A stretch of DNA of 44,897 bases from Halobiforma nitratireducens JCM 10879 (GTDB taxonomy: Archaea > Halobacteriota > Halobacteria > Halobacteriales > Natrialbaceae), in assembly GCF_000337895.1 (NCBI RefSeq), contig NZ_AOMA01000128.1, forward strand, positions 18,778 through 63,674, given 5' to 3'. Every line of letters starts with the position of its first letter. Positions within the stretch are counted from its first letter, which is position 1. Position numbers and translations under genes: made by a program. Below the pieces are notes generated by a model that saw only the letters and a program-made list of their open reading frames with translations, was not told where the DNA came from and made no database searches. Shown here one piece after another: positions 3,083 to 36,868 of the stretch.

Positions 3083-3157
3083 CTCGGGGTCGTACGGAAG
3101 ACGCTGTCTTCCGTGATGACGAGACGCCGAAGGCGTCTCGAACCACGTGACCCCGAG
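3083..3157. ncRNA. Candidate structured RNA: 75-base three-way junction
   Basis: Three perfect stems fit together: an outer 9-bp stem ctcggggtc (3083-3091) with gaccccgag (3149-3157), an inner 9-bp hairpin acggaagac (3094-3102) with gtcttccgt (3106-3114), and a second inner 9-bp hairpin cgagacgcc (3120-3128) with ggcgtctcg (3132-3140). Both inner loops are three bases. It has tRNA-like length but not tRNA arm sizes. It lies between the antiporter stop and the DUF5786-like start, both on the minus strand. It could be a stand-alone RNA, a terminator/processing structure, or a leader element; the transcribed strand cannot be told because the stems are self-complementary. Confidence 0.45.
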
Positions 3158-3162
3158 GCGGT

Positions 3163-3181
3163 TCACGGAAATCCGCCGTGA
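3163..3181 (-). terminator. Short hairpin just past the antiporter stop
   Basis: tcacgg (3163-3168) pairs with ccgtga (3176-3181) across a seven-base loop. It begins 13 bases beyond the antiporter stop codon on the minus strand and directly precedes the three-way-junction element. No T-tract follows, so termination is only a guess. Confidence 0.3.
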
Positions 3182-3194
3182 GAGGCGACGGATA

Positions 3195-19027: not shown

Positions 19028-20827
19028 ATGCCAGAGTATCAAGCACCCGGAGTTTACGTCGAAGAAGAAAGCACTGGAAGCAAATCAGTCGAAGGTGTAA
19101 GTACCAGTACGGCAGGATTTTTGGGACAGACAGTTCGTGGACCGGTCGAACCACAGCTCATCACGAGCTACAACGAGTTCGAGCGCATCTATGGGTCGAG
19201 CCCACCGGAGTCGGATCTAGATGTCGCGATCAACGGCTTCTTCAAGAACGGCGGAAGCCGATGTTACGTCGGTCGGGTCACTGCGGCCGACCCCAACGAT
19301 GTCGCGACGAGAACGCTGATCGACGACGAGAAGAACGACGTTCTCGAACTCGAGGCGAACGGGCCCGGCGACTGGGGAGAAAACGTCGCCGTGATCGTTC
19401 GCGACGGACAGCACCCAGATCAGTTCGATCTGATCGTCCGGTACTGGTCGTGTGATCGGGCCGAAGTCATGGACCCGGACGGCGACCGCCCCGAACCCTC
19501 GCCTGATGTCGAAGAGGTGTTCGATGGACTGTCCGCGGACCCCAAGTCCAGCCAGTTCTACGAAAAGCAACTGACGAGTTCCGTACTGGTCGAGGTCGAA
19601 TATCTCGACGACGGACAGCCGAAAAACGGACTCGTCTGGTTGAGTCGAGACGACCACGATATCCGTACCGACGGCGGCCGCGAAATCCGCACCGATGGCG
19701 GGGTCGTCGAAGCCGATCGGGAAGACGTGCTGCACATTCCGGACGACCTGGACGAACTCACGGACGAAGACCGTGAATCGCTCGCCGAGTCGGTCGATAT
19801 CGACGCTGATCCGTCTTCCGAGGAATTCCTCGACGAACTCGAGCAAATCCGAGACGGCGATCGGGAGGTCGACGCCGAAGTCGTGACGGAACTGCCGGCA
19901 CAGACACAGGCCGACGCCGAACCCGACACCGATGCCGAATCGGATACTGCGTTCGAGTCCGACACCGAAGAGGAAGTCTCTCTGAGCGATTACGAGGGCG
20001 TCGACAAACCCGGCCTTCGTACCGGTCTCGCAGCGTTCAAAGCTATCGACGACATCTCCCTCGTCTGTGCCCCCGACGAAAACGATGTACAGGGGCTGAC
20101 TGACGCGCTCGTCGCACACTGTGAGAACATGGGAGACCGATTCGCGATCCTCCAGTCGCCGCAGACTCCGGGACCCGTCTCCGAGATGGAGACGCCGGTG
20201 GACTCCTCGTATGCGGCCTACTACTACCCCTGGGTCAAGGTCCTCGACCCGGTGACGAACCGGGAGAAGTTGGCTCCACCGGGCGGTCACATCGCCGGGA
20301 TCTACTCCCGGAGCGACATCAGTCACGGCGTTCACAAGGCCCCCGCGAACGAACCGCTTCGCGGGATCGTCGGCCTGCAGCGTGACATCACGAAAGGCGA
20401 ACAGGATGTCCTCAACCCGAAGGGCGTCAACTGTATCCGGAGCTTCCAGGGACGCGGCACTCGCGTGTGGGGCGCTCGGACTTGTTCCAGCGACCCCGAG
20501 TGGAAGTACATCAACGTTCGCCGGCTGTTCCTCTACATCGAGCAGTCGCTCGAAGAAGGGACCCAATGGGCCGTCTTCGAGCCCAACGACGAGGACCTCT
20601 GGGCACGCATCCGCCAGTCCACCGAGAAGTTCCTCAAGACGGTCTGGCGCGAAGGCGGCCTCCAGGGTTCGACGGCCGACGAAGCGTTCTTCGTCCGCTG
20701 TGGGGAAGAGACGATGACCCAGGACGACATCGACAACGGTCGTCTCATCGTCGAGATCGGAATTGCACCGGTCAAGCCCGCAGAGTTCGTCGTATTCCGG
20801 ATCTCACAGGATACCGGTACCGCCTGA
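19028..20827 (+). CDS. Contractile tail sheath protein
   Basis: 599 residues. MPEYQAPGVYVEEESTGSKS and STSTAGFLGQTVRGPVEPQL are the standard N-terminal sheath signature that links to neighbouring subunits, and the C-terminal region (GTRVWGARTCSSDPEWKYIN, RRLFLYIEQSLEEGTQWAVF, then VEIGIAPVKPAEFVVFRI) is the conserved inner sheath domain seen in Afp2/Pvc2 and phage sheaths. Between about residues 150 and 330 is an outward-facing insertion that is strikingly acidic (DTDAESDTAFESDTEEE). It would polymerise round the tube and contract on firing. It is the only sheath gene in the window, whereas Afp and PVC carry several. Start fixed by a purine-rich leader. Confidence 0.96.
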   Translation: MPEYQAPGVYVEEESTGSKSVEGVSTSTAGFLGQTVRGPVEPQLITSYNEFERIYGSSPPESDLDVAINGFFKNGGSRCYVGRVTAADPNDVATRTLIDDEKNDVLELEANGPGDWGENVAVIVRDGQHPDQFDLIVRYWSCDRAEVMDPDGDRPEPSPDVEEVFDGLSADPKSSQFYEKQLTSSVLVEVEYLDDGQPKNGLVWLSRDDHDIRTDGGREIRTDGGVVEADREDVLHIPDDLDELTDEDRESLAESVDIDADPSSEEFLDELEQIRDGDREVDAEVVTELPAQTQADAEPDTDAESDTAFESDTEEEVSLSDYEGVDKPGLRTGLAAFKAIDDISLVCAPDENDVQGLTDALVAHCENMGDRFAILQSPQTPGPVSEMETPVDSSYAAYYYPWVKVLDPVTNREKLAPPGGHIAGIYSRSDISHGVHKAPANEPLRGIVGLQRDITKGEQDVLNPKGVNCIRSFQGRGTRVWGARTCSSDPEWKYINVRRLFLYIEQSLEEGTQWAVFEPNDEDLWARIRQSTEKFLKTVWREGGLQGSTADEAFFVRCGEETMTQDDIDNGRLIVEIGIAPVKPAEFVVFRISQDTGTA

Positions 20828-20886: not shown

Positions 20887-21336
20887 ATGCCTGAACACGG
20901 ACCACTTCCAAGCACAGAATTCAAAGTCGAACTCGACGGCGTCGAGGTTCCCGGTTTCCTCGAGGTCAAGCTGCCGAAAAAGGAGACCGAGGAGTACGAC
21001 TACCGCGAGGGTGACGACGCAAAGCACGCCCGCAAGATGTTCGGCGACGTTCACTACTCGCCGCTCGTCTTGGCCCGTGGTGCCGACGAGAAAAACGACG
21101 CGATCGGCGACTGGCTCAAGGCCGTCGAAGAAGGTAACGAGGACGACGCTCGGAAAGATATCGCCGTGGTCATCATGGACCAGTCTGGCGACAACGCGAT
21201 CCGGTACGAGTTCTCCGAAGCGTGGGTTCGCGAGTACGAACCACCGACGCTGAACGCACAGGCCGGCGGCGGGGAGGCGCTGGCGGTCGAGACGTTCACC
21301 GTCGAGTTCGAGGAAATGGAGCGCAAGAACGTATGA
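20887..21336 (+). CDS. Inner tube protein (gp19-like), first copy
   Basis: 149 residues. FKVELDGVEVPGFLEVKLPK near the N-terminus and the body with a YREGDD segment match the T4 gp19 / Afp1-Pvc1 tube fold, a six-stranded beta barrel that stacks as hexamer rings inside the sheath. The ending AVETFTVEFEEMERK is the usual last strand. It follows the sheath by 59 bases and overlaps the next ORF by four bases (ATGA at 21333). A second, more canonical tube protein lies at 22365; the two may make different parts of the tube or its tip adaptor. Confidence 0.92.
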   Translation: MPEHGPLPSTEFKVELDGVEVPGFLEVKLPKKETEEYDYREGDDAKHARKMFGDVHYSPLVLARGADEKNDAIGDWLKAVEEGNEDDARKDIAVVIMDQSGDNAIRYEFSEAWVREYEPPTLNAQAGGGEALAVETFTVEFEEMERKNV

Positions 21337-21494
21337 CAACACAGACGCCGTCCGGGCACGAGTACACGCTCGATCACACCTGGTACGGCGATGCGTGCCG
21401 CCTCGACAGTGAGGGGCATCTCCATACCGGAAGTGCCACCTCGCACGTCAGCAGTCTCACCGTCACCTACACGACGGACAGAGGTCACGAATGA
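21333..21494 (+). CDS. 53-residue ORF coupled between tube and chaperone-like genes
   Basis: It starts in the ATGA overlap with the tube stop and its own TGA overlaps the ATG of the next gene, so both ends are in register for coupled translation. The protein (MTTQTPSGHEYTLDHTW... ending TTDRGHE) is hydrophilic, rich in His, Thr and Ser, with one Cys. I recognise no family. A longer frame opens upstream at 21222 but lies inside the tube gene. Either a true small subunit or a bridging ORF. Confidence 0.55.
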   Translation: MTTQTPSGHEYTLDHTWYGDACRLDSEGHLHTGSATSHVSSLTVTYTTDRGHE

Positions 21495-22066
21495 GCGATC
21501 AAACACTCCAGACCGAGTTCGAGTTCACCCTGCCGAGAGGGTACGTCGACGACGACGGGACCCTGCACAAAGAGGGGCGGATGCGGCTAGCGACGGCTGC
21601 AGACGAGATCCAGCCGCTTCAGGATCCGAAGGTACAGTCGAACCAGTCGTACCTGACGATCACGCTGCTTGGCAGAGTCGTCACCGAACTCGGCACGCTC
21701 GAGACGGTCGATCGGAGCGTCATCGAAAACCTGTTCGTCACCGACCTGGAGCACCTCCAGGCGATGTACGAACGGATCAACAACCGCGGCCGGAATACCG
21801 TCGTGACCGGTTGTCCGGAGTGTGGCCACGAGTTCGAAGCCGACGTCATGAGCGGGATGCCCCACACTACCGAGGGCGGTCCCGACGCCGACGCCGATGT
21901 CGATCACTCGAGCCCGGCTGTAACGGGTGACGGTGGCGGCGACGGTGGCCCACACGACGATACGGCATTCGAAACGGCGATGACCCGTGACGGTGCCGAT
22001 GGTGCCGACGACGGCGAAGACGCCGACAGCGGTGGTGAGCTCACGACGGGAAATCCGACCGAGTGA
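21491..22066 (+). CDS. Phage-tail-assembly-chaperone-like eCIS protein with CxxC knuckle
   Basis: 191 residues. The first 105 (FTLPRGYVDDDGTLHKEG; MRLATAADEIQPLQDPKVQS; then VVTELGTL and IENLFVTDLEHLQAMYERIN) match a small protein found just after tube genes in many eCIS loci and likened to tail assembly proteins. At 108-111 CPEC followed by GH could bind zinc, perhaps with a partner molecule since only two Cys are visible. The remaining 75 residues are acidic Asp/Gly-rich low complexity. The start is backed by gaggtca five bases upstream and by the ATGA overlap. Role: probably chaperoning tube or tape-measure assembly. Confidence 0.75.
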   Translation: MSDQTLQTEFEFTLPRGYVDDDGTLHKEGRMRLATAADEIQPLQDPKVQSNQSYLTITLLGRVVTELGTLETVDRSVIENLFVTDLEHLQAMYERINNRGRNTVVTGCPECGHEFEADVMSGMPHTTEGGPDADADVDHSSPAVTGDGGGDGGPHDDTAFETAMTRDGADGADDGEDADSGGELTTGNPTE

Positions 22067-22326
22067 TACAGCTGTACGACCGCGACACCCTCTACGAGGA
22101 GGTTGCGTTCGTCGCGTACCACTTCGGGTGGAGCCGCGATGAAGTGCTCTCGCTTCCTCACTGGGAGCGACACCGGTGGTGCGAAGAAATCAGCGAGATC
22201 AACGAACGGATGAACGACGGCACCCCGTCGGCACCGCAGGAACAGTCCCAGCCCGAACAGAGCGGAAGCATCCTCGGCGACGACGGTGAGGGGACGCTCC
22301 TCCAGAACTCGCTCGAGGACCTCTAA
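22063..22326 (+). CDS. DUF6760-like small eCIS protein
   Basis: 87 residues from GTG 22063, overlapping the previous stop as GTGA. The first 50 residues (YDRDTLYEEVAFVAYHFGWS then HWERHRWCEEISEINERMN) match a short helical family seen beside the chaperone-like gene in eCIS loci and annotated, as I recall, DUF6760. The rest is a Gln/Ser/Pro-rich tail ending LLQNSLEDL. Pairing with the preceding chaperone-like gene resembles the paired tail-assembly ORFs of phages, so a joint assembly role is a fair inference. Confidence 0.75.
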   Translation: MIQLYDRDTLYEEVAFVAYHFGWSRDEVLSLPHWERHRWCEEISEINERMNDGTPSAPQEQSQPEQSGSILGDDGEGTLLQNSLEDL

Positions 22327-22364: not shown

Positions 22365-22817
22365 ATGACATACACGGATCAGAGCGACCCTTACACACAG
22401 TTCAATTTCGAGGTACAGGTCGACGGCGAACCCGTAGCCGGATTCTCGGAGATATCCGGGATCACGATGCAACTGGAGACAGTCGAGTACAGGGAGGGTG
22501 GCGTGAACGACCACGTCCATTCCCTGCCGGGGACGTTCTCTCACGCGAACCTCGTGATGGAACGCGGCATGACCGAGGATGCGACGTTCTGGCAATGGGT
22601 ACAGGACGTTATGAGCGGCAACGTGACGCGAAAAGACGTCGTTATCAAACTCCAGGAAGGTTTCCAGGGCCAGAGCGTCTGGGGCTGGGAGTTTACCGGT
22701 GCCTATCCGACGCGGTGGCAGGGCCCCGATCTCGTCGGCGCGAAAAACCGAATGGCTTTCGAGTCGCTCGAGTTGACCTACCAGCGATTCGACACGGTGT
22801 CGGGGATGCCGGAGTAG
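22365..22817 (+). CDS. Inner tube protein (gp19-like), second copy
   Basis: 150 residues. YTQFNFEVQVDGEPVAGFSE, then ISGITMQLETVEYREGG, HSLPGTFSHANLVMERGM and the final LELTYQRFDTVSG are the textbook signature of Afp5/Pvc5 and T4 gp19 tube proteins. It is closer to the consensus than the copy at 20887. Starting 38 bases after the DUF6760-like gene, it closes the left half of the locus; beyond it lies a 1.45 kb non-coding or decayed stretch. In Afp-type particles tube paralogues act at the baseplate end, and the same split may hold here. Confidence 0.93.
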   Translation: MTYTDQSDPYTQFNFEVQVDGEPVAGFSEISGITMQLETVEYREGGVNDHVHSLPGTFSHANLVMERGMTEDATFWQWVQDVMSGNVTRKDVVIKLQEGFQGQSVWGWEFTGAYPTRWQGPDLVGAKNRMAFESLELTYQRFDTVSGMPE

Positions 22818-24263: not shown

Positions 24264-26576
24264 CTACGGTGCCCCGTCGAACTGCCGCTCGAGTTCTTCG
24301 TAGTGGCGTTTCGTTGCGTCGTCGACGCTCGGACTGGTCGCCTTGATCGCGTGGTCGAAGTGATCGGCAGTCACCGTAATCGTGCCGACGTCGTCCTCGA
24401 TGTCGGCCGGCGTCTTCTCGTCGACGAACTGCCGGGCCGCCTCCATCGCGGCTTCGCGACAGACAGCCTCGATATCCGCCCCGACGTGACCCTGCGTACG
24501 ACCGGCGAGACGAGCTAGTTCGACCTCGTCCCCGATCGAGCGGTGTGTCGTGTGGACGTCGAAGATTTCGCGGCGTGCCTGGTCGTCAGGAATCGGAACG
24601 TGGATCTGCCGATCGAACCGTCCGGGGCGCAACAACGCGTCGTCGATGAGGTCCGGCCGATTACTGGTCGCGATCACGATGACGTCCTCGAGTTCCTCGA
24701 GTCCGTCCAGCTCCGTCAGTAACTGGGAGACCACACGTTCCTGTACGCCGGAGCTGTCGCCACCGCTACTGCGCTCGGCGGCGATCGCGTCGATCTCGTC
24801 GAAGAAGATCACCGCGGGGGCGTTCGAACGAGCCTTCTCGAACACTTCCCGGACGCCTTTTTCCGACTCGCCGACGTACTTGTTGAGCAGTTCAGGCCCC
24901 TTGATCGAGATGAAATTGCTCTGGGCTTCGCTGGCGACGGCCTTGGCGAGCAGCGTCTTCCCAGTGCCCGGCGGCCCGTACAGCAACACCCCGTTTGCCG
25001 CGGTGAGATGGAGTTCGTCGAAGACGGGACCGTATTCGAGGGGCCACTGTATCGTTTCGCGGAGCCGCCGTTTCGTGTCCTCCAGTCCGCCAACGTGGTC
25101 CCACGAGACGTCCGGCACTTCGACGAACACCTCGCGAAGCGCGGAGGGGTCGACGCTGCTCATCGCCCGCTGGAAGTCGTCTTCCGTGACCTCGATCGCC
25201 TCGAGTACCTCGGCATCGATCGTATCGCTTTCGAGATCGAGATCCGGTCGGACGCGACGCAACGCTCGCATCGCGGCTTCTTTCGCGAGTTGCTCGATGT
25301 CGGCCCCGACGAAGCCGTGGGTGTCCGCGGCGTACTTTTCGAGGTCGACATCTTCCGAGATCGGCATCCCGCGGGTGTGGACATCGAGGATTTCACGACG
25401 ACCGTCCTTGTCCGGGACGCCGACCTCTATCTCGCGGTCGAAGCGGCCGCCACGCCGGAGCGCGGGGTCGATGGCATCGACGCGGTTGGTGGCACCGATG
25501 ACGACGACTTCGCCGCGCTCTTCTAGACCGTCCAGAAGCGAGAGCAATTGTGCGACGATCCGACGCTCGACGTCCCCGCTGGTCTCCTCGCGCTCCGGGG
25601 CGATAGAGTCGATCTCGTCGATGAAAACGACGGCTGGCGATTGTTCGGTCGCTTCCTCGAAGACCGACCGGAGTTGCTCTTCGGACTCGCCGTAGTACCG
25701 GGACATGATCTCCGGCCCGGAGATGTCCGTAAAGAAGGCGTCAATCTCGTTCGCGACGGCCTTCGCGATCATCGTCTTCCCCGTTCCTGGCGGGCCATGA
25801 AGGAGGACTCCTTTCGGCGGTTCGATCCCCAGCTGCTGGAACAGTTCGGGGTACCGCATCGGCAACTCGATCATCTCCCGGACCTGCTCGAGTTCGTCGT
25901 CGACGCCTCCGATGTCTTCGTATGTGACATCGGGCGGAGACGACTCCGACTGTGACTGGGGCTGGCCTTGGGTTTCGGTGTCGGCTTCTGACGCGGCCCC
26001 GTTACCCTCTTTGCGTTGCTTTCCTTGTCCGTGGGACTGGGCGCGCTCGCGCTGTCGCTCGCTCGCCCGTTCTTTCACAGTGAGGTTCGTAGAGCCGACG
26101 ACGACGACCGTGCCGTCAGTCGGTTCCGCCCCCGCGACCTCCACCGGAATGCGTTGTTCCGGAACGGAGGACCCGGGACCGAGCCCCAGGGAAATATCGA
26201 CGCTCTGTCCGGGGTCGACGGCCCTTCCCTTGAGTTTTCGTTTGACGATCGGCGCGAGATCACCGTCGACGCGAAGCGTCTCGGGGACGGTTACCGTAAG
26301 CGTCGTTGCGGCCGGGAGATCGGCTGCCGACACCGTGACGGTGTCGCCGAGACTGACCCCGGGAGCTTGGCGGAGGTGGCCGTCGATGCGAATGACCCCG
26401 AGATCTTCGTCTTCGGGGTACCCCGGCCAGACGCGAGCAGCAACTTCGCCCTCGCTTCCTTCGATAAAAACGTAGTCACCGTTTTCGATATCCAGTTCTG
26501 CCATTGCCGTTCGATCGATGGCGGCGAGACCGCGACCTGCGTCTTTCTGTTTGAGGGATCTGACGGTAAGTTCCAT
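24264..26576 (-). CDS. CDC48-type AAA ATPase of the eCIS locus
   Basis: 770 residues. A CDC48 N-domain (1-170, double-psi barrel style) is followed by a Gln/Ser/Arg-rich linker (171-216) and two AAA rings: D1 Walker A GPPGTGKT at 261-268 with Walker B VVFIDE at 316-321, and D2 Walker A at 534-541 with Walker B IFFDE at 590-594. Arginine-finger and sensor motifs (GATNR, RRGGRFD, TSNRPD, RPGRFD) are present in both. eCIS loci nearly always hold an AAA ATPase (Afp15/Pvc15) needed for assembly; here it is a full CDC48 form on the opposite strand. Haloarchaea also have housekeeping CDC48 genes, so it may be a recruited paralogue. The linker is unusually long. Confidence 0.9.
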
Positions 26577-26989: not shown

Positions 26990-28159
26990 ATGATAACGAG
27001 AAAGATCAAAAAATACGCAAAAAAGGCCGTAAAGAAGTTCATTAAACCGATTCTTCCGGCCGTAATGATTGCACTGGGGGTCGCATTAACCGCGACGGTC
27101 GTGGTCTGGTCGGCCGGATGGCTCGAGAGCGTTCCAGCGGTGACGCTCCCGGTGACGGGATCGGAGATAGATGCGTCACGTGTCGTGTTCATCTCCGGGT
27201 TTCTAGTCGGGCTCTTCGTCGGCGGCTGCTACCTTCTGTACCGCACCAAACGCGAAGCGATTCGCCAGCGCTGGGAGCAGTACTCGACGTGGGCGAAGGC
27301 GATGATCAGCGGGTGGGTAGCTGCGCTGTCTGTCGCCCTCGTCCTCTCGGTCGGATACGTTCTCGACTGGCTTACGGTCACGACGTTGCTCGTCGGCGTC
27401 CTGTTGAGTTGGCCCCTGGCCGTCGGAACGGTGCTGTTGGGGTATCGAAAGAGTACTCGGGCGTCCTCGACACTCGAGTCGATCAAGATCGGGTACGTAC
27501 TTACCCGTGGGTTAGAGAGCCGGACGCTCTCTATGATCGTCGGGCTCCTCGTCGCCATCGGTAGCGGACTTGCGATCGGTGGCCTCACGTGGTACTTCGA
27601 CCGCTACGTGTGGTGGATTCCCGTCGTCTTCGCCGGGTTACTCTGGGGTGTGGTGACGCTGTGGGTCTACAACCGTCACGAGCGTCGAACCACCGAACGG
27701 ACCGACCTCGTCATTGCTGCCATCAGCACGCCGGAGTCCCGAGACGTCCGTGAACTCACCGTTCGGAACGTTTCCGGACGACCGATCGAGCTCTCGGAAG
27801 CACTGATCCGGGATACGGACCTCGACCTCTACAGGCCCGGCGTCGACACGACCCTTCGTCCGGGGGAGGAGGGGACGTTCGAGATCGAACAGTCGTTCTC
27901 CCTCGAGCCGAACGACGACGCGATCCGTCTCCCGCTCGGGTACAACCTCAAGCGCGGCGGGGAGACACCTGCAGTGTTCACGAAGACGGGGGAGGTCTAC
28001 TTCCTCCAGTGGGCGGCACAACCGGCGGCCACGATCGGCCGCGACAGCTCAAAGCACGTGGTCGACTCGGCCGACCAGCGCCGCGACGAACGCCACTCGT
28101 CGGCCGAAACGTCGGAGTCAGTGATCGGCTCGGCCGGCAACCCAACGCCACAGGACTGA
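26990..28159 (+). CDS. Polytopic membrane protein inside the eCIS locus
   Basis: 389 residues. The N-terminus is strongly basic (MITRKIKKYAKKAVKKFIKP), odd for a halophile, and leads into about six membrane segments (near residues 22-44, 63-83, 103-123, 128-150, 178-198, 204-224). The last 160 residues are soluble and appear beta-rich (RDVRELTVRNVSGRPIELSE; EGTFEIEQSFSLEPNDDAIR). I recognise no family. It is the first gene after the divergent promoter and leads into the giant protein, so it is probably co-expressed with the baseplate genes. Possible roles are anchoring, release or protection of the producing cell; none is shown by the sequence. Confidence 0.75.
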   Translation: MITRKIKKYAKKAVKKFIKPILPAVMIALGVALTATVVVWSAGWLESVPAVTLPVTGSEIDASRVVFISGFLVGLFVGGCYLLYRTKREAIRQRWEQYSTWAKAMISGWVAALSVALVLSVGYVLDWLTVTTLLVGVLLSWPLAVGTVLLGYRKSTRASSTLESIKIGYVLTRGLESRTLSMIVGLLVAIGSGLAIGGLTWYFDRYVWWIPVVFAGLLWGVVTLWVYNRHERRTTERTDLVIAAISTPESRDVRELTVRNVSGRPIELSEALIRDTDLDLYRPGVDTTLRPGEEGTFEIEQSFSLEPNDDAIRLPLGYNLKRGGETPAVFTKTGEVYFLQWAAQPAATIGRDSSKHVVDSADQRRDERHSSAETSESVIGSAGNPTPQD

Positions 28160-28239: not shown

Positions 28240-31200
28240 ATGTTCGACCCTATCACCGATAGAATCCTCACGCGAAACGCCGACGACGGCGACGGCGGCG
28301 ACGACACGCTGCGAGACGTTACCGTCGGGACCGACTGGAGCGACGGGAACGGTGGCCTCTTGCTCGAGGGAATCGACGGAAGCGACATTGGGAGTGGTCG
28401 GTTCCGGGGCCTCGAGACGGTGACGAAAGTCGATCGCCCGCAGACGCCGGCGACCGGCACCGGGCGGGGCAGTATTCTCACGCTCGATCCGTCGAAGCTG
28501 GGCAGCGGATTCTCGCTGCGGATCGTCAACCGATATCTGGCCGCCGACCGGACGTATCGACATCGTATCTGGGGCGACGCCCCACCCGAGGAAGGCGGGG
28601 AAGAGTTCGACCCGGAGCCGGACGATCCCCAGTCGACCGACGGAGAGTTCGAGGAACCGTCATTTCTCCCGGACGAGCCGTTGGCGTCGTTCGGCCTCGA
28701 GTCGACCGACGACACGATTTCGTGGCTGGAAGACGGCGCGTCCGAGCGGGAGTCTGTAGGCGGCGTTTCGGATCGCACAGATCACGACTCCCGACGCGAG
28801 AAAGCTGCAAATCCATCGTGGATAACGGCCACAGGGTCCGAACCGTCGCCAACCAGTAGCGGGGACGATGATGAGTACGGGCAGCCCCGTGACGGTCGGA
28901 GCGTCCCTCCCCGTCGGAGATCACCAATCAGCGAAGCTGAAACCGAGAGTGCTGTCGGTGACGACGGTGAGAACTCCCGGCCGTCGCGTACGTCCACTCG
29001 GTCGGCAAGGACGCCGGGCGGCCAAACCGGAACAGCCGGACTCTCGGACCCGTCGCCGAGCGACACGCGTGCATCGAAGAGACGAAGTGCCGCCGACGCC
29101 GACGCCGTCGCGACCAGCACCCAGGCACGCTCGAGCGCCACGACCGGTCGACGACCGGCACCGAGCGGTCGGACGGCTGACTCGAACGGTCAGTCGCCGG
29201 TGGCTGCGGGACCCAGTCCGAGTATCTCCCTGCGAACGCGCTCGATCGGTTCCGTAGTGGCCTCGGGGCCGGCAGCGGGGACCCCTCGACAGCGCTCGAC
29301 CGATGCTCCGAGCAGGACCCGGATCGGAGCCGGGACCGAGACGCCGCGGATCGACGACCGCCGAGAGACGGCACAGACCGTCTATCGGTCCCGGAGAGCG
29401 GAAGGTGAAGCCAGCGAGAACCGCCCGGCGGCGAACGAACACCCGTCAGGTCCCAGGCCGGAGACCGATCCGTCGTCTTCTCTTGGCGTCGAAGGGTACG
29501 AACGGAACGAGAGACAGCACAGCACAGCCGTGCAGAGAGCCACGAGAGCCGATGAGTCGACGGAAACGTTCGTGGCGAGTGACCGGAGACAGTCTCGTGC
29601 CCACAGCGAGGGAGCGCTCGGGATCGGAGAAAGAGCCCTCGGTCCCGTCGGGCGGCGAGGGGACGACCAGTCGACACCCGTCGTTTCCGACCCGACGAGT
29701 GTGTCCAGTCAAACGAAAGAGACGAGCCGCGACAGCACCGAGACGGCGGAGTCTGCGGGTCGATTCGACGGACGCAAATCGAGCGGACGTGGCCGGGCAC
29801 GGGGACAGAACCGAACTCCCCTGTCCTCGGAGGCCACCACGTCGAGACCACGGCGGTTTCGCTCGGAAACAAACGCGGCGACGGCCGCCGCTCGCGACCG
29901 GCCGACTCGATCGAACGATGGAGCCGCCACCCAGTCGCCGTCCGTCGGCGGTCGAACCACAACTGTCGGGTCCGTCGCCCCGTCGTCGAGCGACACGCGG
30001 ACGCTCGATGGGGAGGACGGCGAGGCCGCTGTCGCGACCAGTGCTGTGTCACGCGCGACGACCGATGCCGATCGACGGTCGACACCGAGCAAGCGTGTGA
30101 CCGACGCGAGCGGGCGATCGCCGACGACGGCGGGACTGGGTCGAGGCATCTCCCTGCGAACGCGTTCGATCGGTTCCACGGTGTCGTCGAGCCCGACAGC
30201 GGAGCCCTCTCGCCGGCAGTCGGCCGCGACCGAGACCAAGGCCGCGAGCGAAACCGGGGCCGAGGCCAGGACACCACGGATCGACGACCGCCGAGAGACG
30301 GCTCAAACTGTCTATCGCTCTCACCAGCCGGAAGCCGGGCCCGGAGACGATCGTTCGACGGCGAACGAGCACTCGTCGGAGCCCAACCCACCGGCCCGTC
30401 CGGGCAGCGACGGGACACAGCGACCGCCGTCCTCGATCCAGCAGGAGTCTACCGCGATTGACCCGGAACCACCGACCCGAACGGCAGGCGATCGCCGGCA
30501 GCCTCGAGGCCCCAACGAGGGAGTACTCGGCACTGCCGGCTCCGCTTCTGCCGAGCGCGGTGAGAACGTGACACCGACTATCGCGTCTTCCGATTCGTCG
30601 AGTACACACGGCGAGGTCGGACGAACGAACCGCGAAACCGGTAGAACGACGAGCCAGACGGGATGGACGAGCGAGCAGGGCAACTGGTCCTCGATGTCGG
30701 TACGCTCGACGACCGCTCGCATCCCACGATCGGGGCCGACGGAATCGGCCCGTGGGACTACCGAAGGGAGCAGCCAGGTTTCGAGAGCAACACGCTCGAC
30801 GACCGCTCGCATCCCACGATCGGTGTCGAGGGAATCGGCCCGTGGGACTACCGAAGGGAGCAGCCAGGTTTCGAGAGCAACACGCTCGACGACCGCTCGC
30901 ATCCCACGATCGGTGTCGAGGGAATCGGCCCGCGTGGCCTCCGAAGGGAGCAACCAGGTTTCGAGAGCAACACGCCCGACGACCGATCGTATCTCACGAT
31001 CGGGGCCGACGGAATCGGCCCGTGGGGCCTCCGAAGGGAGCAACCAGGTTTCGAGAGCAACACGCTCGACGACCGATCGTATCTCACGATCGGGGTCGAC
31101 GGAATCGGCCCGCGTGGCCTCCGAAGGAAGCGACCGGCCCTCGACGCTGGTGCGCTCGGTAGCCAGTGGTGTCTCACGACCACAACCCACCCAGTCGGCC

Positions 31201-34200
31201 GGTGCATCTACCGAACGAAGCGGCCGACCGCTGGCGGTCAAAAACGACAGGAACCCGGCGACAAGGGAACGGAGTCCGGCGACGGTTCCGCGAGTCCCCA
31301 GCACCTCATCGGAGGGAGTCTCGAGCGTCGATTCGAGTCGGTCAGTCGACCGCAGTACACCTCTTTCGAGCGAGCCGCTGACGGGAACGGGAACGGGAAC
31401 GGGAACGGTGACGGAGACGGGGATAAGGACGAGAACGGTGACGGAGACGGAAGCGAGCACGATCGACGCGATCCCGGAGCCAACGGAACGGACGACGCTC
31501 GAGTCGCGGACTGACGCTCGTCGGCCGAGTGCGGTCGAGCGCGGTTCTCGGCAGAACACCGTCGTCTCAGGTGCCGGCTCGCTTTCCTCCTCGTCGCGTC
31601 CGTCGAACGGCGTCGGTGGTGGAATCCGACAACGGGTCGCTCGGTTCGCCAGCCCACCTCGACCCAGCACGGCTGTTCCGTCCGGGTCGGAACGACACGA
31701 ACGGAGAGCGAACGTGGATACCGACGCAATCGCCCCCGCCGTTCCGACCAGTGTCGCGGACGGCGTCCAGGGAACCGCATCCACGCAGTCAGTCGATTCC
31801 GTCTCGGATTCCGACGCCAGTCCCGTGGGAAGCGAGCGCGACGCGACACGTCGCCGCAGCGATTCGCTATCCGTGCTGTCGAACGTGAGGAGAACCGCCA
31901 GCGGTGGTGGACGCGCGAGCACGCTGAGTAGCACTCGAGAACGACGAGAGCAGACGGGGGGTACCTGGACGCGCGACGCTGACCAGCAAACTGGAACCCG
32001 GACGCGCGACGCTGACCGGTCGACCACGCGAGGGGCGGAATCGACCGCGCTGACCGCAGCGTCGACCCGTGGCGATGCAACCGAGTCGATCGCCCACCGA
32101 GGAGAGGGATCGGCATCGTCGAACGACCTCGAGATTTCCACGACAGGTGGTCTCGAGGGATCGCCGTTATCGACGACGACCGAGCGTGTGACCGGGCAGG
32201 CACGGACCGTCGACGGCTCGAGTGTGAGTGCGAGTACGAGTGCAAGTGCAAGTGCAAGTTCGGGTTCGGGAACGGATGTGACCGAAGCTCCGGGCGAAAC
32301 GCACGAGCGTCGAACGCGCGTGAACGCAGCGAGTTCGAGCCCGAACCAGTCAGTCTCATCACGGAGCGTCGGTCACCCGTCCGATCGACAGCGGCCACGA
32401 CCGTCGACGCTCCCGCGTGGCGTTGCGACGCGGATTCGACGCACGAAGTCACGGACATCCGGAGCGCGTTCGCGACCTCAGTACAGCGGCTTCGAGCCGT
32501 CGGCCCCGTCCACGGGGTCGGCAGGGGCGATCCGCTCTCGTTTGGACGAACCCGGCACGCACGAAACCCAGAGGACCGCTGGAACCGCCGGCACACGGCC
32601 CTCGAGTACCGCACCCGGATCGCCGGCCACGTTGACGACTCGCTCCAGCGGAAGCGCACAACAGGTGTCCGACGCGCGTGGCCGGTCGTCGACCGACGGG
32701 ACGGACCGAGCGTCGGTTTCGTCGGGGGACGGGCGGCCCGAAATCGGGGATTCCGTTCCAGCTGGTGGCACTGACGGCATCGATTCCACGCTTGCATCGC
32801 GTGCTACGACGGTCGGGACCAGCCCCGGCTCTCGAGCGACGGGCCTCTCCGACGAGACCACTGGCGGAGCTTCATCGGTCGCTGACCCATCCCAGCCAGT
32901 GGCCCGAACCGACGTCCAGTCTCGCAGTTCTCCATCCGTCGACGCCACCCGGACGCCCACTTCCCAACCTCGTCGTGGCTCGCAGAGCCTGCGACGACGG
33001 ACGGATCGTCCGACGGCGGTTACGGTGTCGACCGACACGGAGACGACCGTCGCAGGGACGCGGTCTCGCTTCACTCCCGTTCTCGATGTCGACACGGGGG
33101 CCGGTAGCGGTGACCCTACAACCGCAGACGCTGCCAGCGTGGAACGCGACGGGCTGGGAGAGGCAACGGGACGGACCCGCAGTTCGAGCGCTGCGGGACA
33201 GCCGTCCGAATCGGGACTGCAGGGAACCGACGTTGCATCCCGGATACAGTCTCCGTCTCTTTCTGCTCCCACGACACGCCACGGTCCGGATGATGACGCT
33301 GCCACCAGCGACGTTTCGATGGCGGTCGCCGATTCGACCGAGCGGGAAGCCGACGATTCGAAGCGTGGACGGTCCACCAGTCGACGGCCGCCGCGAAGCG
33401 GCAACGAGACCGAGTCGAGTACGACTGTCGGCGAGCCCAGCCTCGCCCGCACCGTCGACGACTCGCCGTCGCTTACCGCCCCAGTACGCATCCGCTCGAG
33501 CGATACCGTCGGTGCGGTCGAGCCCGCGCGGTCGCACGACGATGATGAGATAAATAAATTTAAAAAACATCAATTAGAATCTACGACCGACGAGTCGATG
33601 GAGACAGCTAGCTCGAGTTCCGAACGCCCCTCGCTCGTCTACCGTGGCTCACAGCCTCTCGGCGTCACTGACGGCGAGAGTCAGTCACACGACGACGGGA
33701 CACAGGCCCCCGAGACGCGAATTAACGGCGGCCAAACCGACGATACCGGTCGCGCCAGCGTGCTGTCCTCGCGGGCCGACGACCGCGTCGTCGACGACCC
33801 TCCCGCGACGCGGGGCGACCGGCGCGCCACCACGGATCGGACTGCAGCGACGCAGGGTCGTGGGACGCCGGATCGTCACGAGGGGGGACGACGACGGGAA
33901 AACGTAACGAATCGGGAGGCGATGGGCAGCGACCGTCGCCCCGATTCGGGACGATCACCTGCCCACCGCGGTGGCCGAGGTGATGGGTTCGATCGGGGTC
34001 CCTCGTCCGGCCCACGTCCTGGCCCCGCGGCAGGTCCTGGTCACCAGTCCGGGCCGTCCCCGACCGATGGACGGGGCGGTAGTCCACGGGACCAGGATCA
34101 GTACCACGGGTTCACCGATCGGACACCCCGGACATCGAGCCAGCACTCCCACGGCACGAACAGGTCACGAGACAGACGGACCGATACCGACGTTCCGATT

Positions 34201-34311
34201 CCGGACGAGTCGCTCCGGTACGAAGCCGACGTCGATCGCGTCGTCGAGCGACTCTATCGGAAACTCGAGCGTCGAAAACGAATCGAACGCGAACGGAGAG
34301 GTAACCGATGA
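28240..34311 (+). CDS. Giant Ser/Thr/Arg-rich disordered eCIS protein
   Basis: 2023 residues. Residues 1-130 look ordered (MFDPITDRILTRNADDGDGG; SKLGSGFSLRIVNRYLAADR) and the last 30 form a charged helix, DVDRVVERLYRKLERRKRIE, of a kind I associate with proteins at this place in eCIS loci, just before the LysM baseplate gene. Everything between is low complexity, dominated by Ser, Thr, Arg, Gly, Ala and Asp with few hydrophobics and one Cys or fewer per hundred residues, so largely disordered. It contains five 30-residue tandem repeats and a larger internal duplication with ISLRTRSIGS and TPRIDDRRETAQTVYRS. Roles to weigh: tape measure, tube-filling or scaffold protein, or surface-exposed spacer. 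Stop overlaps the next start (ATGA). Confidence 0.85.
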   Translation: MFDPITDRILTRNADDGDGGDDTLRDVTVGTDWSDGNGGLLLEGIDGSDIGSGRFRGLETVTKVDRPQTPATGTGRGSILTLDPSKLGSGFSLRIVNRYLAADRTYRHRIWGDAPPEEGGEEFDPEPDDPQSTDGEFEEPSFLPDEPLASFGLESTDDTISWLEDGASERESVGGVSDRTDHDSRREKAANPSWITATGSEPSPTSSGDDDEYGQPRDGRSVPPRRRSPISEAETESAVGDDGENSRPSRTSTRSARTPGGQTGTAGLSDPSPSDTRASKRRSAADADAVATSTQARSSATTGRRPAPSGRTADSNGQSPVAAGPSPSISLRTRSIGSVVASGPAAGTPRQRSTDAPSRTRIGAGTETPRIDDRRETAQTVYRSRRAEGEASENRPAANEHPSGPRPETDPSSSLGVEGYERNERQHSTAVQRATRADESTETFVASDRRQSRAHSEGALGIGERALGPVGRRGDDQSTPVVSDPTSVSSQTKETSRDSTETAESAGRFDGRKSSGRGRARGQNRTPLSSEATTSRPRRFRSETNAATAAARDRPTRSNDGAATQSPSVGGRTTTVGSVAPSSSDTRTLDGEDGEAAVATSAVSRATTDADRRSTPSKRVTDASGRSPTTAGLGRGISLRTRSIGSTVSSSPTAEPSRRQSAATETKAASETGAEARTPRIDDRRETAQTVYRSHQPEAGPGDDRSTANEHSSEPNPPARPGSDGTQRPPSSIQQESTAIDPEPPTRTAGDRRQPRGPNEGVLGTAGSASAERGENVTPTIASSDSSSTHGEVGRTNRETGRTTSQTGWTSEQGNWSSMSVRSTTARIPRSGPTESARGTTEGSSQVSRATRSTTARIPRSVSRESARGTTEGSSQVSRATRSTTARIPRSVSRESARVASEGSNQVSRATRPTTDRISRSGPTESARGASEGSNQVSRATRSTTDRISRSGSTESARVASEGSDRPSTLVRSVASGVSRPQPTQSAGASTERSGRPLAVKNDRNPATRERSPATVPRVPSTSSEGVSSVDSSRSVDRSTPLSSEPLTGTGTGTGTVTETGIRTRTVTETEASTIDAIPEPTERTTLESRTDARRPSAVERGSRQNTVVSGAGSLSSSSRPSNGVGGGIRQRVARFASPPRPSTAVPSGSERHERRANVDTDAIAPAVPTSVADGVQGTASTQSVDSVSDSDASPVGSERDATRRRSDSLSVLSNVRRTASGGGRASTLSSTRERREQTGGTWTRDADQQTGTRTRDADRSTTRGAESTALTAASTRGDATESIAHRGEGSASSNDLEISTTGGLEGSPLSTTTERVTGQARTVDGSSVSASTSASASASSGSGTDVTEAPGETHERRTRVNAASSSPNQSVSSRSVGHPSDRQRPRPSTLPRGVATRIRRTKSRTSGARSRPQYSGFEPSAPSTGSAGAIRSRLDEPGTHETQRTAGTAGTRPSSTAPGSPATLTTRSSGSAQQVSDARGRSSTDGTDRASVSSGDGRPEIGDSVPAGGTDGIDSTLASRATTVGTSPGSRATGLSDETTGGASSVADPSQPVARTDVQSRSSPSVDATRTPTSQPRRGSQSLRRRTDRPTAVTVSTDTETTVAGTRSRFTPVLDVDTGAGSGDPTTADAASVERDGLGEATGRTRSSSAAGQPSESGLQGTDVASRIQSPSLSAPTTRHGPDDDAATSDVSMAVADSTEREADDSKRGRSTSRRPPRSGNETESSTTVGEPSLARTVDDSPSLTAPVRIRSSDTVGAVEPARSHDDDEINKFKKHQLESTTDESMETASSSSERPSLVYRGSQPLGVTDGESQSHDDGTQAPETRINGGQTDDTGRASVLSSRADDRVVDDPPATRGDRRATTDRTAATQGRGTPDRHEGGRRRENVTNREAMGSDRRPDSGRSPAHRGGRGDGFDRGPSSGPRPGPAAGPGHQSGPSPTDGRGGSPRDQDQYHGFTDRTPRTSSQHSHGTNRSRDRRTDTDVPIPDESLRYEADVDRVVERLYRKLERRKRIERERRGNR
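30702..31151 (+). repeat. Five 90-base tandem repeats inside the giant gene
   Basis: Units begin with acgctcgac or close variants at 30702, 30792, 30882, 30972 and 31062. Each codes for 30 residues of the type TTARIPRSVSRESARGTTEG. The last two copies differ from the first three in the same way (gaccgatcgt for gaccgctcgc and gcctcc for actacc), so the array probably grew in steps. Confidence 0.93.
33541..33585 (+). promoter_or_regulatory. AT-rich promoter-like patch inside the giant gene
   Basis: About 45 bases, including gataaataaatttaaaaaac, are mostly A and T within otherwise GC-rich coding sequence; they encode an odd Lys/Asn/Phe-bearing segment (EINKFKKHQLE). The TATA-like ataaataaattt (33550-33561) would start transcription near 33581, 17 bases before an in-frame ATG at 33598. 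That would give a C-terminal product of 237 residues that keeps the conserved end helix and could also feed the baseplate genes downstream. Confidence 0.5.
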
Positions 34312-34976
34312 CGAACGGAAAATTAGAGAAGGCCCAGATTACCATCCTCAACGGCAAAAAGCAAGGTGAAACGATCGAGTGTAAGTTCAATCCGAGCTCG
34401 TACACACTCGAAAAGAGCGTCAACTACGGCGAGATGAAAGCGACCGGCTCGGGTGCGTCGATCATGCAGTTCGTCGACGGCAACGCGGAGACGCTGTCGA
34501 TGGAGCTGTTTTTCGATACGACGGATAAACTCGGCTCCGACGACGCATCGACCGAGGAGCTCGACGTCCGGGAGCAGTACACGAAGTACATCGACTATCT
34601 GCTCGCCGTCGACGGCGAACTTCACGCCCCACCGGTCTGTCGATTCGTCTGGGGAGACGGGATCGACTTTACTGCGTTAGTCCAGAGTGCGAACAAGCAG
34701 TTCACCAAGTTCCTCCCCAGCGGCGTCCCCATCCGCGCTCGCGTGTCGATTGTCTTCAAGGAGTACAAAACGGCGGACTATCACAAATCGGAGGTCTCGC
34801 CGGAGTCGACCGACAAGACGAAAGTGTGGACGGTGTCGGAAGGGGATACCCTCTGGCTCATCGCGGACGAGGAGTACAGTGACCCATCTCACTGGCGAAC
34901 GATCGCGGACCAGAACGGCATCGACAACCCCCGCGCGATCGAGCCGGGTGAAAAACTCGAGTTGCCCCCTCTGTAG
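34308..34976 (+). CDS. LysM-domain baseplate protein (Afp7/gp53-like)
   Basis: 222 residues. The first 165 match the conserved eCIS protein that links tube and baseplate (LEKAQITILNGKKQGETIEC; KFNPSSYTLEKSVNYGEM; then SMELFFDTTDKLG and SGVPIRARVSIVFKEYK). A LysM domain occupies about 172-222 (VSEGDTLWLIADEEYSDPSH and GEKLELPP). LysM binds glycans elsewhere, but in eCIS and phage baseplates it is a structural module; archaea lack peptidoglycan, which supports that view. ATGA overlap with the giant gene means coupled translation. Confidence 0.93.
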   Translation: MTNGKLEKAQITILNGKKQGETIECKFNPSSYTLEKSVNYGEMKATGSGASIMQFVDGNAETLSMELFFDTTDKLGSDDASTEELDVREQYTKYIDYLLAVDGELHAPPVCRFVWGDGIDFTALVQSANKQFTKFLPSGVPIRARVSIVFKEYKTADYHKSEVSPESTDKTKVWTVSEGDTLWLIADEEYSDPSHWRTIADQNGIDNPRAIEPGEKLELPPL

Positions 34977-34977
34977 T

Positions 34978-35103
34978 ATGAGCGAAGGGATTCCACGCCG
35001 CAAACGCTGTCCGCACTCTTCACCCCGGGCTTCGAACACCGGGGTTGCTCGCGTCCAGAGTGGTCGCTCCGACGACCGAGACTGCGGAGGTGAGAGCGCG
35101 TGA
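34978..35103 (+). CDS. 41-residue bridging ORF between LysM and hub genes
   Basis: It starts two bases after the LysM stop (TAG-TATG) and its TGA overlaps the GTG of the hub gene. The protein MSEGIPRRKRCPHSSPRASN... is basic with two Cys, unlike the acidic proteome. No family recognised. It carries the hub gene's ribosome-binding site within its last codons, so translating it may open that site. It may be non-functional as a protein. Confidence 0.4.
   Translation: MSEGIPRRKRCPHSSPRASNTGVARVQSGRSDDRDCGGESA
35086..35093 (+). promoter_or_regulatory. Full Shine-Dalgarno site deciding the hub start
   Basis: ggaggtga matches the 3' end of haloarchaeal 16S rRNA over eight bases and lies six bases before the GTG at 35100. 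It fixes that GTG as the start and is the strongest such site I see in the locus. Confidence 0.75.
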
Positions 35104-36125
35104 GCTACGATGTCGACAACCATCCGCGATACTCTCCCCGGTTCAAAGTGATGATCGGGGATCAGAAGTTCCAGGAGCCCGGCGGTCGGATCGCCGACCT
35201 GGTAGTCGAGACCTCTTTCGAGGGTGCAGACCGGTTCTCGTTCGGGCTCAACTATCCGTTCGACGAAGAGCTCGACGAGTTCGCGGGGTTGTCCTGGGAC
35301 CAGTTCGAGGTCGGGACCGACGTGGAGATCGCGATGGGGTACGGCGACGAAGGAGAGTTGACGCCGCTTCTGTCGGGGAAGATCAGGTCGATCACCGGTG
35401 AGTTCACGGTCGATCACGGCCCCGAAGTGCAGGTTTCGGGGTACGGGCTCCTGTGGGAGGCCATGCAGGGGTCGCGATCGGACTCCTGGGAGGAGTCGAC
35501 GATCGGCAATGCCGTCGAAGACGTGCTCTCGTCGTACCCGTTCTCGTCGGTCGAGGTCGAGAGCGCACAGATCGAACGCGAAAAGCTCATCCAGAACGGC
35601 TGTAGCGATTACCAGTTCGTTCACGACCTCGCGGAGACGTACGGGTTCGAATTCTACGCCGAGCGGGACACGGTGAAGTTCGTTCCGCGATCCTCGGCGG
35701 TTTCGGACGATCCGGTCGCCGAGCTGTGGTACGGCGAGGACCTCCACGACTTCACCGGCGAAATCTCACATCGTCGGGATACCCACGAGGTCGAGATCAG
35801 GTCGTGGGACGTCGAACGAAAGGAAGAAATCGTAGAGACTGCAGGCAGTTCGGATGCGAAACACAAGGAGGTATTCAGCGTGCCAGCAATGTCACCCGAC
35901 GAAGCCGAACGGATCGCGGAAACGAAGCTCAACCAGTTCTCGGACGAAGTCGTCCGCGGGTACGGCGAAGCCGACGGCATCCCCGAAATCCGTGCGGGTG
36001 AAACGGTCGAACTCGTCGAACTCGGCGAGCGGTTCTCGAGTGTCTACCACGTGACCAAAGCGACCCATCGGATGGGTGCTGCCGGCTATCGGACGACGTT
36101 CGAGGCAGTGGAGGTCGGAGCATGA
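35100..36125 (+). CDS. Baseplate hub protein (gp27 / VgrG N-terminal / late control D-like)
   Basis: 341 residues. The opening YSPRFKVMIGDQKFQEPGGR, VGTDVEIAMGYGDEGELTPL, LLSGKIRSITGEFTVDHGPE, and the later DYQFVHDLAETYGFEFYAER are the standard gp27/VgrG hub signature. It would form the trimer that connects the spike to the tube's first hexamer ring. In Afp and PVC the hub and the spike are one VgrG-like chain (Afp8/Pvc8); here the spike is a separate gene overlapping by four bases (ATGA at 36122). Length fits the hub part alone. Confidence 0.92.
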   Translation: MSYDVDNHPRYSPRFKVMIGDQKFQEPGGRIADLVVETSFEGADRFSFGLNYPFDEELDEFAGLSWDQFEVGTDVEIAMGYGDEGELTPLLSGKIRSITGEFTVDHGPEVQVSGYGLLWEAMQGSRSDSWEESTIGNAVEDVLSSYPFSSVEVESAQIEREKLIQNGCSDYQFVHDLAETYGFEFYAERDTVKFVPRSSAVSDDPVAELWYGEDLHDFTGEISHRRDTHEVEIRSWDVERKEEIVETAGSSDAKHKEVFSVPAMSPDEAERIAETKLNQFSDEVVRGYGEADGIPEIRAGETVELVELGERFSSVYHVTKATHRMGAAGYRTTFEAVEVGA

Positions 36126-36868
36126 GTCAGCCGGGCGTATTCGACGGTGAGACACCGGAAGGCGGCATGCACGGCGTCGTCGTCGGTGTCGTCACCGACA
36201 ACGAAGACCCGAAAGACCTCGGTCGCGTCAAACTGCAGTTCCCGTGGCGTGACGCCGACGACGAGAGTTACTGGGCCCGGATCGCGACGCCGATGGCCGG
36301 CGACGAGTACGGTGCGTATTTCCTGCCTGATGTCGACGACGAGGTCCTGGTCGCGTTCGAAAACGGCGATATCCATCGACCCTATGTCATCGGCTCGCTG
36401 TGGAACGGCAAACAGACGCCGCCGCAGAAAAACGACGGCAACAACGACGTTCGCGAGATTCGTACCCGGAGCGATCACCGTATCACCTTCGACGACGATC
36501 GGGACGGCGACGACGGGAGCGTTACCATCGAGACCAGTGCCGGCCACGAGATCGTCATCGACGACGACGACAGCAACGAGACGATCCTGATTCGCGACGA
36601 CGATGCGACGAACCAGATCGTTCTCGACTCCTCGGACGATTCGGTCGCGATCGAAGCCGGCGACGAACTCGAACTCTCCGCGAAGAACATCACGATCGAC
36701 GGCGACAAGAGCGTCGAGATCACCGGCGGCACGAAAGTCGATGTCAAAAGCAAAAACACCGTCGACGTTTCGGGCAAAGCGAACGTCGACATCGACAGCG
36801 GCGGTATCATGAGTATCGACTCGACGGGACCGCTGACGATCGAAGGCGCAATCATTCGACTGAACTAA
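36122..36868 (+). CDS. Central spike protein (gp5 / baseplate assembly V-like)
   Basis: 248 residues. An OB-fold lies at about 15-105 (GVVVGVVTDNEDPKDLGRVK; DEVLVAFENGDIHRPYVIGS; then LWNGKQTPP, the hallmark of VgrG/gp5 proteins). From about 120 on, short repeated strands (ITIDGDKSVEITGGTKVDVK; NTVDVSGKANVDIDSGG) form the triple-stranded beta-helix needle. There is no lysozyme domain, as in other eCIS spikes. Asp-rich loops (DDDRDGDDGS, DDDDSNE) suit high salt. It would carry the PAAR tip encoded directly downstream. Confidence 0.94.
   Translation: MSQPGVFDGETPEGGMHGVVVGVVTDNEDPKDLGRVKLQFPWRDADDESYWARIATPMAGDEYGAYFLPDVDDEVLVAFENGDIHRPYVIGSLWNGKQTPPQKNDGNNDVREIRTRSDHRITFDDDRDGDDGSVTIETSAGHEIVIDDDDSNETILIRDDDATNQIVLDSSDDSVAIEAGDELELSAKNITIDGDKSVEITGGTKVDVKSKNTVDVSGKANVDIDSGGIMSIDSTGPLTIEGAIIRLN

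Follow-up and report, generated by a model that had tools for sequence, protein, structure and literature searches.

In diffocin, a trimer of the tape-measure protein spans the tube and contacts the spike with its C-terminal helix, and in the tape measures of 80alpha and T5 the 20 and 35 C-terminal residues, respectively, have been resolved as trimers (PMC10996793). The contractile injection systems (CISs) of Streptomyces are described as having no tape-measure gene (PMC10066040), the particles of S. coelicolor all having one length, i.e. 61 sheath layers (PMC12237407), and the systems of haloarchaea are described likewise, with tape measure and plug both called missing (PMC11566945). Here we analyse a window of 44,897 nucleotides from the haloarchaeon Halobiforma nitratireducens JCM 10879 (contig NZ_AOMA01000128.1, positions 18,778 to 63,674), which carries a CIS locus with a gene for a protein of 2023 residues, hereafter the chain protein (28240..34311, + strand), just before the gene for the LysM tube-initiator protein. 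We propose that this protein is the haloarchaeal CIS tape measure, non-helical along its length and plugging the spike with a C-terminal helix, a reading to which we assign a probability of roughly 0.5. No description of the chain protein was found in the open-licence PMC literature; the nearest published idea is Tme, a largely disordered tape-measure-related CIS protein, which is, however, an effector (PMC11126660).

The chain gene, a candidate tape measure or giant spike plug, runs from an ATG to a stop codon that overlaps the LysM start by 4 nt. Its open reading frame (ORF) is genuine and translated, because in six pairs of close species without masked bases every one of the 71 indels keeps the frame, which also rules out a spurious ORF in GC-rich DNA; two further pairs including a masked sequence, in which 13 of 16 and 23 of 45 indels are multiples of three, were excluded. 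Over ten pairs, Ka/Ks is 0.38-0.82 in the middle of the gene and 0-0.32 in the last 35 codons, i.e. selection is weak on the middle and strong on the C-terminus. At the thresholds used the protein belongs to no Pfam, NCBIfam or PHROG family.

A search of 391 Halobacteria genomes yields LysM homologues in 46, among them that of the window, which is 85% complete, and a LysM match was obtained in 17 of the 170 genomes of the Haloferax elongans family. In the window and in all 45 other haloarchaeal CIS loci compared, the ORF directly before LysM ends in a charged motif of about 30 residues, DVDRxVxxLYRKLERKxRIERERRG or a variant of it, and the gap between this ORF and the LysM match is at most 20 nt in 43 of the 46 loci. 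The chain gene is a core gene of haloarchaeal CIS loci. Candidate ORFs had to end in the interval from 400 nt before the LysM start to 60 nt after it, and loosely basic ends were preferred; taking the longest upstream ORF without this preference yields the same ends except in three short-chain loci (L065, L071 and L075), where the longest ORF is a different one further upstream. A preliminary description of the window, made from the letters of the DNA, had suggested a family conserved at its ends and expanded in between whose relatives might be found by aligning the ends across other loci. This expectation was confirmed, as homologues of the C-terminus were recovered in the slot before LysM and the motif is present in 46/46 haloarchaeal and 13/32 other loci, the N-terminal motifs having been compared among haloarchaea.

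Two motifs conserved among haloarchaea, R-[DE]-I/V followed by I-x-T-L-D-P-x-[RK]-L-x-G-G-F-x-x-R-I, lie within the first ~107 residues of the chain protein, and alignments delimit a conserved segment of residues 24-107 (28309..28560, + strand, as for all parts of the gene). For this end AlphaFold2 predicts no structure with confidence (mean pLDDT 53, with a single low-confidence helix at residues 84-100), i.e. of the earlier proposal that the first 130 residues look ordered the conservation stands and a folded domain is not supported. The middle (28570..34200), rich in Arg, Ser, Thr, Gly and Pro and variable in length, is disordered as judged by composition, weak constraint and structure prediction: residues 131-1990 comprise 29% Ser and Thr, 13% Arg, 10% Gly, 7% Pro and 11% hydrophobic residues, and AlphaFold2, which near the C-terminus was applied to the last 120 residues, finds no structure in residues 1904-1987 (pLDDT ~50). 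FoldIndex is negative in 1696 of 1972 51-residue windows of the whole protein, which is weak evidence here, as it is also negative in many windows of the folded proteins of the locus (89 of 98 for tube protein 1). The middle contains a tandem repeat of 4.8 copies of a 90-bp unit (30702..31135), seen as a 30-residue self-offset, and matches itself at an offset of about 310 residues. At the C-terminus AlphaFold2 predicts a charged helix at residues 1988-2020 (34201..34299), with block means of pLDDT of 84-94 in its middle, and this segment, also delineated by alignments and profile searches, is the proposed docking plug for spike or hub. Both the Ser/Thr/Arg/Gly-rich disordered middle and the ordered, charged last ~30 residues had been foreseen in the preliminary description.

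The position of the chain gene is that of the tape measure in two phages. It lies directly before the tube-initiator and hub genes in all 46 haloarchaeal loci. In BalMu-1 and vB_EauM-23, the two phages inspected out of 16 with a matching record, the gene immediately ahead of LysM is annotated as tape measure; the match in these records covers the LysM part only. The chain protein shares with the tape measures of phages and diffocin (CD1366, encoded before XkdP/LysM) the slot before LysM and hub, as seen in the two phages, chaperone-like genes nearby and one very long chain. The chaperone-like genes (phrog_508, PF20546) stand between tube and chain genes, as do those for the second tube protein, an AAA ATPase and a candidate membrane anchor. 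The predicted C-terminal helix has its counterpart in the docking helix of the diffocin tape measure (PMC10996793). In contrast to these tape measures, the chain is rich in Arg, Ser, Thr, Gly and Pro, matches none of them in sequence and has no recognised enzyme domain. CIS_TMP (Cis14/Afp14, PF19268) resembles the chain protein in its proposed role in particle length, but is a different family in a different place (just before the ATPase gene in Aureibacter) and was found in none of the 46 haloarchaeal genomes. Nor did it turn up in any of another 11 genomes or records that encode a chain protein (seven archaeal genomes and four plasmids, the motif of Rhodococcus being recognised by eye alone and that of Embleya at E=0.49) or in a Nostoc plasmid; the control search recovered it from two of seven control records, both annotated plasmids. 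Since the gene occupies the phage slot, neither PF19268 nor the plug family PF19265 was found, and the diffocin tape measure sets its C-terminal helix on the spike, we read the chain protein as plug and tape measure in one. That chain length could determine the size of the particle, an early suggestion, is in keeping with the slot and with the absence of another recognised tape measure.

Such a ruler would have to be extended without being helical. A continuous helix is implausible because Pro and Gly make up 17% of the chain; two phage tape measures have 13-14%, but three times as much hydrophobic content. A long helical or coiled-coil body is likewise unsupported, with 10% of the residues of the chain in Pro/Gly-free runs of at least 20, compared to 18% in each of two phage tape measures. 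Non-helical, unfolded chains serve as length rulers in type III secretion (YscP/FliK type), which belong to a different machine and offer an analogy only. Contracted sheaths of Halogeometricum borinquense have a mean length of 220 nm (PMC11566945). At a rise of 1.709 nm this corresponds to about 129 rings. With an assumed 3.9 nm per ring in the extended tube, these rings would span about 500 nm, which chains of 1605-2365 residues can cover at 0.31-0.21 nm per residue only if they are not α-helical, 2000 residues of helix amounting to 300 nm; as the chain lengths are from other haloarchaea this is a plausibility bound. The net charge per residue is -0.09 and -0.13 for the two tube proteins and the chain is neutral, which we count in favour of our reading together with the negative lumen of the Anabaena tube, a property shared with AFP and PVC (PMC8894136).

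The chain proteins fall into two groups, with 1096-2365 residues (median 1605) in 34 loci and 381-625 residues (median 458) in 12, lengths that may be slightly too long as they were counted from the first possible start codon. A multi-transmembrane (multi-TM) protein, the candidate membrane anchor, is encoded 80 bp upstream of the chain gene (26990..28159, + strand) and fits the description given for Hbor_38620 in PMC11566945. Homologues of it exist in all 34 genomes with a long-chain locus and in none of the 12 with a short-chain locus, i.e. in 33 of the 45 other genomes, exactly those with a long chain; three of the matches are weak (E of 1.6e-12, 6.5e-10 and 5.3e-7), three contain an internal stop, and in three long-chain loci the match lies outside the fetched stretch, in one of them ~0.7 Mb away. 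The anchor gene immediately precedes the chain gene, on the same strand and at most 600 nt away, in 23 of the 34 long-chain loci. Long and short chains are separated by one split on the LysM tree (support 99/96), which resembles the division into two clades in PMC11566945; there, the anchor-bearing clade works in the manner of a type VI secretion system (T6SS) in the two species studied. The word "particle" used in the preliminary description has to be corrected, as the published relatives of the anchored clade act as membrane-bound T6SS-like devices and not as released particles (PMC11566945).

Based on these findings we infer the following scheme of docking, trimer formation, lumen location and length control. 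The C-terminal helix of ~30 residues would form a plug atop the spike, probably as a trimer, held by the GPD/gpV hub and the LysM tube initiator, whose genes are its neighbours, and would so nucleate the tube. The disordered chain of ~1,900 residues would lie in the growing tube, handled by the proteins resembling tail assembly chaperones, and its conserved N-terminus would come to lie at the distal end, at which the tube ceases to grow. The chains of the anchored, T6SS-like clade would then be about 3.5 times longer (median) than those of the sister loci because their tubes are far longer.

A number of observations weigh against a tape measure. The chain protein matches no known tape-measure family in Pfam, NCBIfam, PHROG or PF19268, the synteny with phages is based on two records, and the resolved tape measure of diffocin is a coiled coil, which the haloarchaeal chain is not. 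The absence of PF19268 is not specific and on its own not telling, because, of the seven controls, four that have CIS loci but no chain protein lack it as well. The link between anchor and chain length counts as one event because it goes back to a single split on the LysM tree. Chain lengths vary within a genus, and indels look compensated in just one of seven pairs (P=0.02; 0.43-0.98 in the others), so that chain length is only loosely kept. A periodicity matched to the rings is not clear either (highest mean power ~1.5 versus ~1, no significance test), and the shortest chain of the long clade, 1096 residues, would fall short of 500 nm even when fully stretched (395 nm). In PMC11566945, tomograms of H. 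borinquense are without extra density in the tube lumen, one legend terms the sheath lengths heterogeneous, and mass spectrometry identified Cis2 only in sheath preparations and nine other proteins in a secretome comparison. The objections from lumen density and mass spectrometry are softened by the thinness of a flexible chain, by the fact that the sheath preparations yielded nothing but Cis2, and by poor tryptic peptides: as computed, trypsin would cut the Arg-rich chain into pieces of 8.0 residues on average, with 101 of 253 peptides of 7-30 residues.

The chain protein might instead be a giant spike plug that is no ruler, its C-terminal helix nucleating assembly on the spike like the small plugs Cis6 and Alg6 and its disordered part being a passive lumen loop or spacer, possibly with both ends at the spike as in Alg6. 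The Cis6/Alg6/Afp6 plugs share with it a slot between tube protein and tube initiator, a C-terminal helix and a disordered part. The chain gene lies between a tube gene and that of the Cis7-type LysM protein, with the AAA and anchor genes intervening after the second tube gene; deletion of Alg6/Cis6 abolished AlgoCIS particles, and Alg6 consists of an N-terminal strand, a disordered loop and a C-terminal helix (PMC8894135). Moreover, DUF5908 (PF19265), which from its slot we take to be the Cis6 family, was not found in any of the 46 haloarchaeal genomes (the control found it in three of seven records, in one below the cut-off), and the loose control of chain length would suit a spacer. Nevertheless, the Cis6-type slot proteins of the compared loci have 53-71 residues and no detectable sequence relation to the chain: neither profile searches nor hhalign (probability 3.4%) supported homology to DUF5908 or six short slot proteins, and a passive loop leaves unexplained why 1,100-2,400 codons are kept in frame beside chaperone-like neighbours. 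We thus consider a plug that does not measure rather unlikely.

Two other roles seem less probable still. As cargo, raised as an option in the preliminary description, the chain would be loaded into the tube and delivered to a target cell like Tme, the tape-measure-related effector of Streptomyces davawensis. Tme, too, is large and ~70% disordered; its gene immediately precedes those of the baseplate, and binding to spike and tube initiator has been proposed for it (PMC11126660). Yet the DUF4157 and nuclease domains of Tme were not found in the chain, nor were the coiled coil or the predicted TM hairpin of Sle1, the tape-measure-related effector of S. lividans, or any other domain. In addition, the secretome comparison of H. 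borinquense (PMC11566945) lists Cis1, Cis2, Cis7, Cis8a and five DUF4157 proteins and not the chain, and the gene holds a core slot in every haloarchaeal locus examined, all of which makes cargo improbable. Alternatively, the protein could be a cytosolic scaffold or tether outside the tube that links the baseplate to the membrane anchor or gathers effectors, in line with the coincidence of long chain and anchor and the adjacent genes in 23 of 34 long-chain loci. This is improbable in our view, as the short-chain relatives that have no anchor retain the same slot and C-terminal motif, and the chaperone-like neighbours and phage synteny favour a location in the tube.

The C-terminal motif of the proposed tape measure is not confined to haloarchaea. 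A profile of the 46 haloarchaeal C-termini was run on 8355 six-frame segments taken from 32 loci of bacteria and other archaea and in the first round matched ten loci at E<=1 (eight at E<1e-3), each time in an ORF adjoining the tube-initiator gene and at its end or at most 10 residues from it. After addition of the eight, the second round gave five of the 24 remaining loci at E<2e-4 and three at 0.18-0.49, all in the slot before the initiator; matches above E=2 look like chance. At E<1e-3 the motif is thus present in ten archaea of the same phylum and in Nostoc, Paenibacillus and Rhizobium. Profile support is weaker for Kovacikia (2316 residues, stop to stop), Brasilonema (1177 residues, E 0.24-0.38) and Embleya (E=0.49), and a similar motif is seen by eye only in Pseudanabaena (2531 residues), Rhodococcus and Paraburkholderia. 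The motif is unsupported in the other 13 loci, i.e. seven with short slot proteins (Aureibacter, Azospirillum, Iodobacter, Roseomonas, Cereibacter, S. clavuligerus L101 and one archaeon), Treponema, two Deinococcus and three Streptomyces. Among solved structures the C-terminal profile gave four chance-level matches (best E 0.071), one short slot protein a single chance match, and the long proteins of Nostoc and Streptomyces none.

Long proteins before the tube-initiator gene with a similar end motif are encoded on two cyanobacterial plasmids (L156:4963-12558, 2531 residues, and L158:1913-8860, about 2316 residues), apparently a separate expansion. Besides a similar C-terminal motif, the slot protein of the cyanobacterium Brasilonema (L157:9747-13280, - strand) bears a signature of phage tape measures at residues 887-925 (phrog_25241, E=9.3e-5). 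A small Pseudanabaena ORF upstream of the tube gene (L156:4268-4453) has a similar short motif with a chance-level score (E=4.8). In CIS loci on Streptomyces plasmids (L107:2358-5420, L154:309-4457 and L153, ~3119-4372), the interval from DUF6760, or its slot, to the second tube gene contains a low-complexity, Pro/Arg-rich ORF with a length of about 420-1380 codons. This ORF may encode the tape measure that S. coelicolor is said to lack; kinship with the chain protein is unsupported, the proteins being alike in place and make-up with no C-terminal profile score at E<=5.

The order of genes in the window is sheath, tube, tail assembly chaperone (TAC)-like, DUF6760, tube 2, CDC48-type AAA ATPase on the opposite strand, multi-TM protein, chain, LysM, GPD, gpV, a PAAR-like frame recognised by eye, gp25 and two baseplate J genes. 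The sheath protein (Cis2; 19028..20827, + strand, as for the following genes) matches PDB 9ezm, presumably the H. borinquense sheath, over residues 1-597 with 946 bits. It is followed by tube protein 1 (gp19; 20887..21336), the TAC-like protein (21491..22066; phrog_508, E=6.6e-8), its DUF6760 neighbour, an open frame whose start codon is not fixed (22039..22326; PF20546, E=4.1e-42), and tube protein 2 (gp19, Cis5 position; 22365..22817). Downstream of the chain gene lie the genes for the LysM tube initiator (Cis7 position, CIS_tube PF19266 and LysM; 34308..34976), the baseplate hub GPD (35100..36125) and the spike base gpV (36122..36868). A CIS13 family protein is encoded upstream of the sheath gene (17580-18824; NCBIfam NF053767, 573 bits). 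The ATPase gene within the CIS locus (24264-26576, opposite strand) has copies of 79-80% identity at the same place and on the same strand in L031 and L032.

The chain gene provides a concrete tape-measure candidate for haloarchaea, and a cue for searches elsewhere, namely a C-terminal helix encoded just before the tube initiator. Tentatively, we extend this to a separate class of tape measure, a disordered, extended ruler that is fixed to the spike through a short conserved helix, which class might be common to archaeal and bacterial CISs that have no recognised tape measure and might have been enlarged on separate occasions, to 2365 residues in haloarchaea and 2531 in cyanobacteria, to set tubes of T6SS length. 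A disordered ruler of this kind would be unlike the tape measure resolved in diffocin, which is a coiled coil. On this wider view a T6SS-like machine would have a programmed length, and the chain gene makes the length control of such a machine directly testable.

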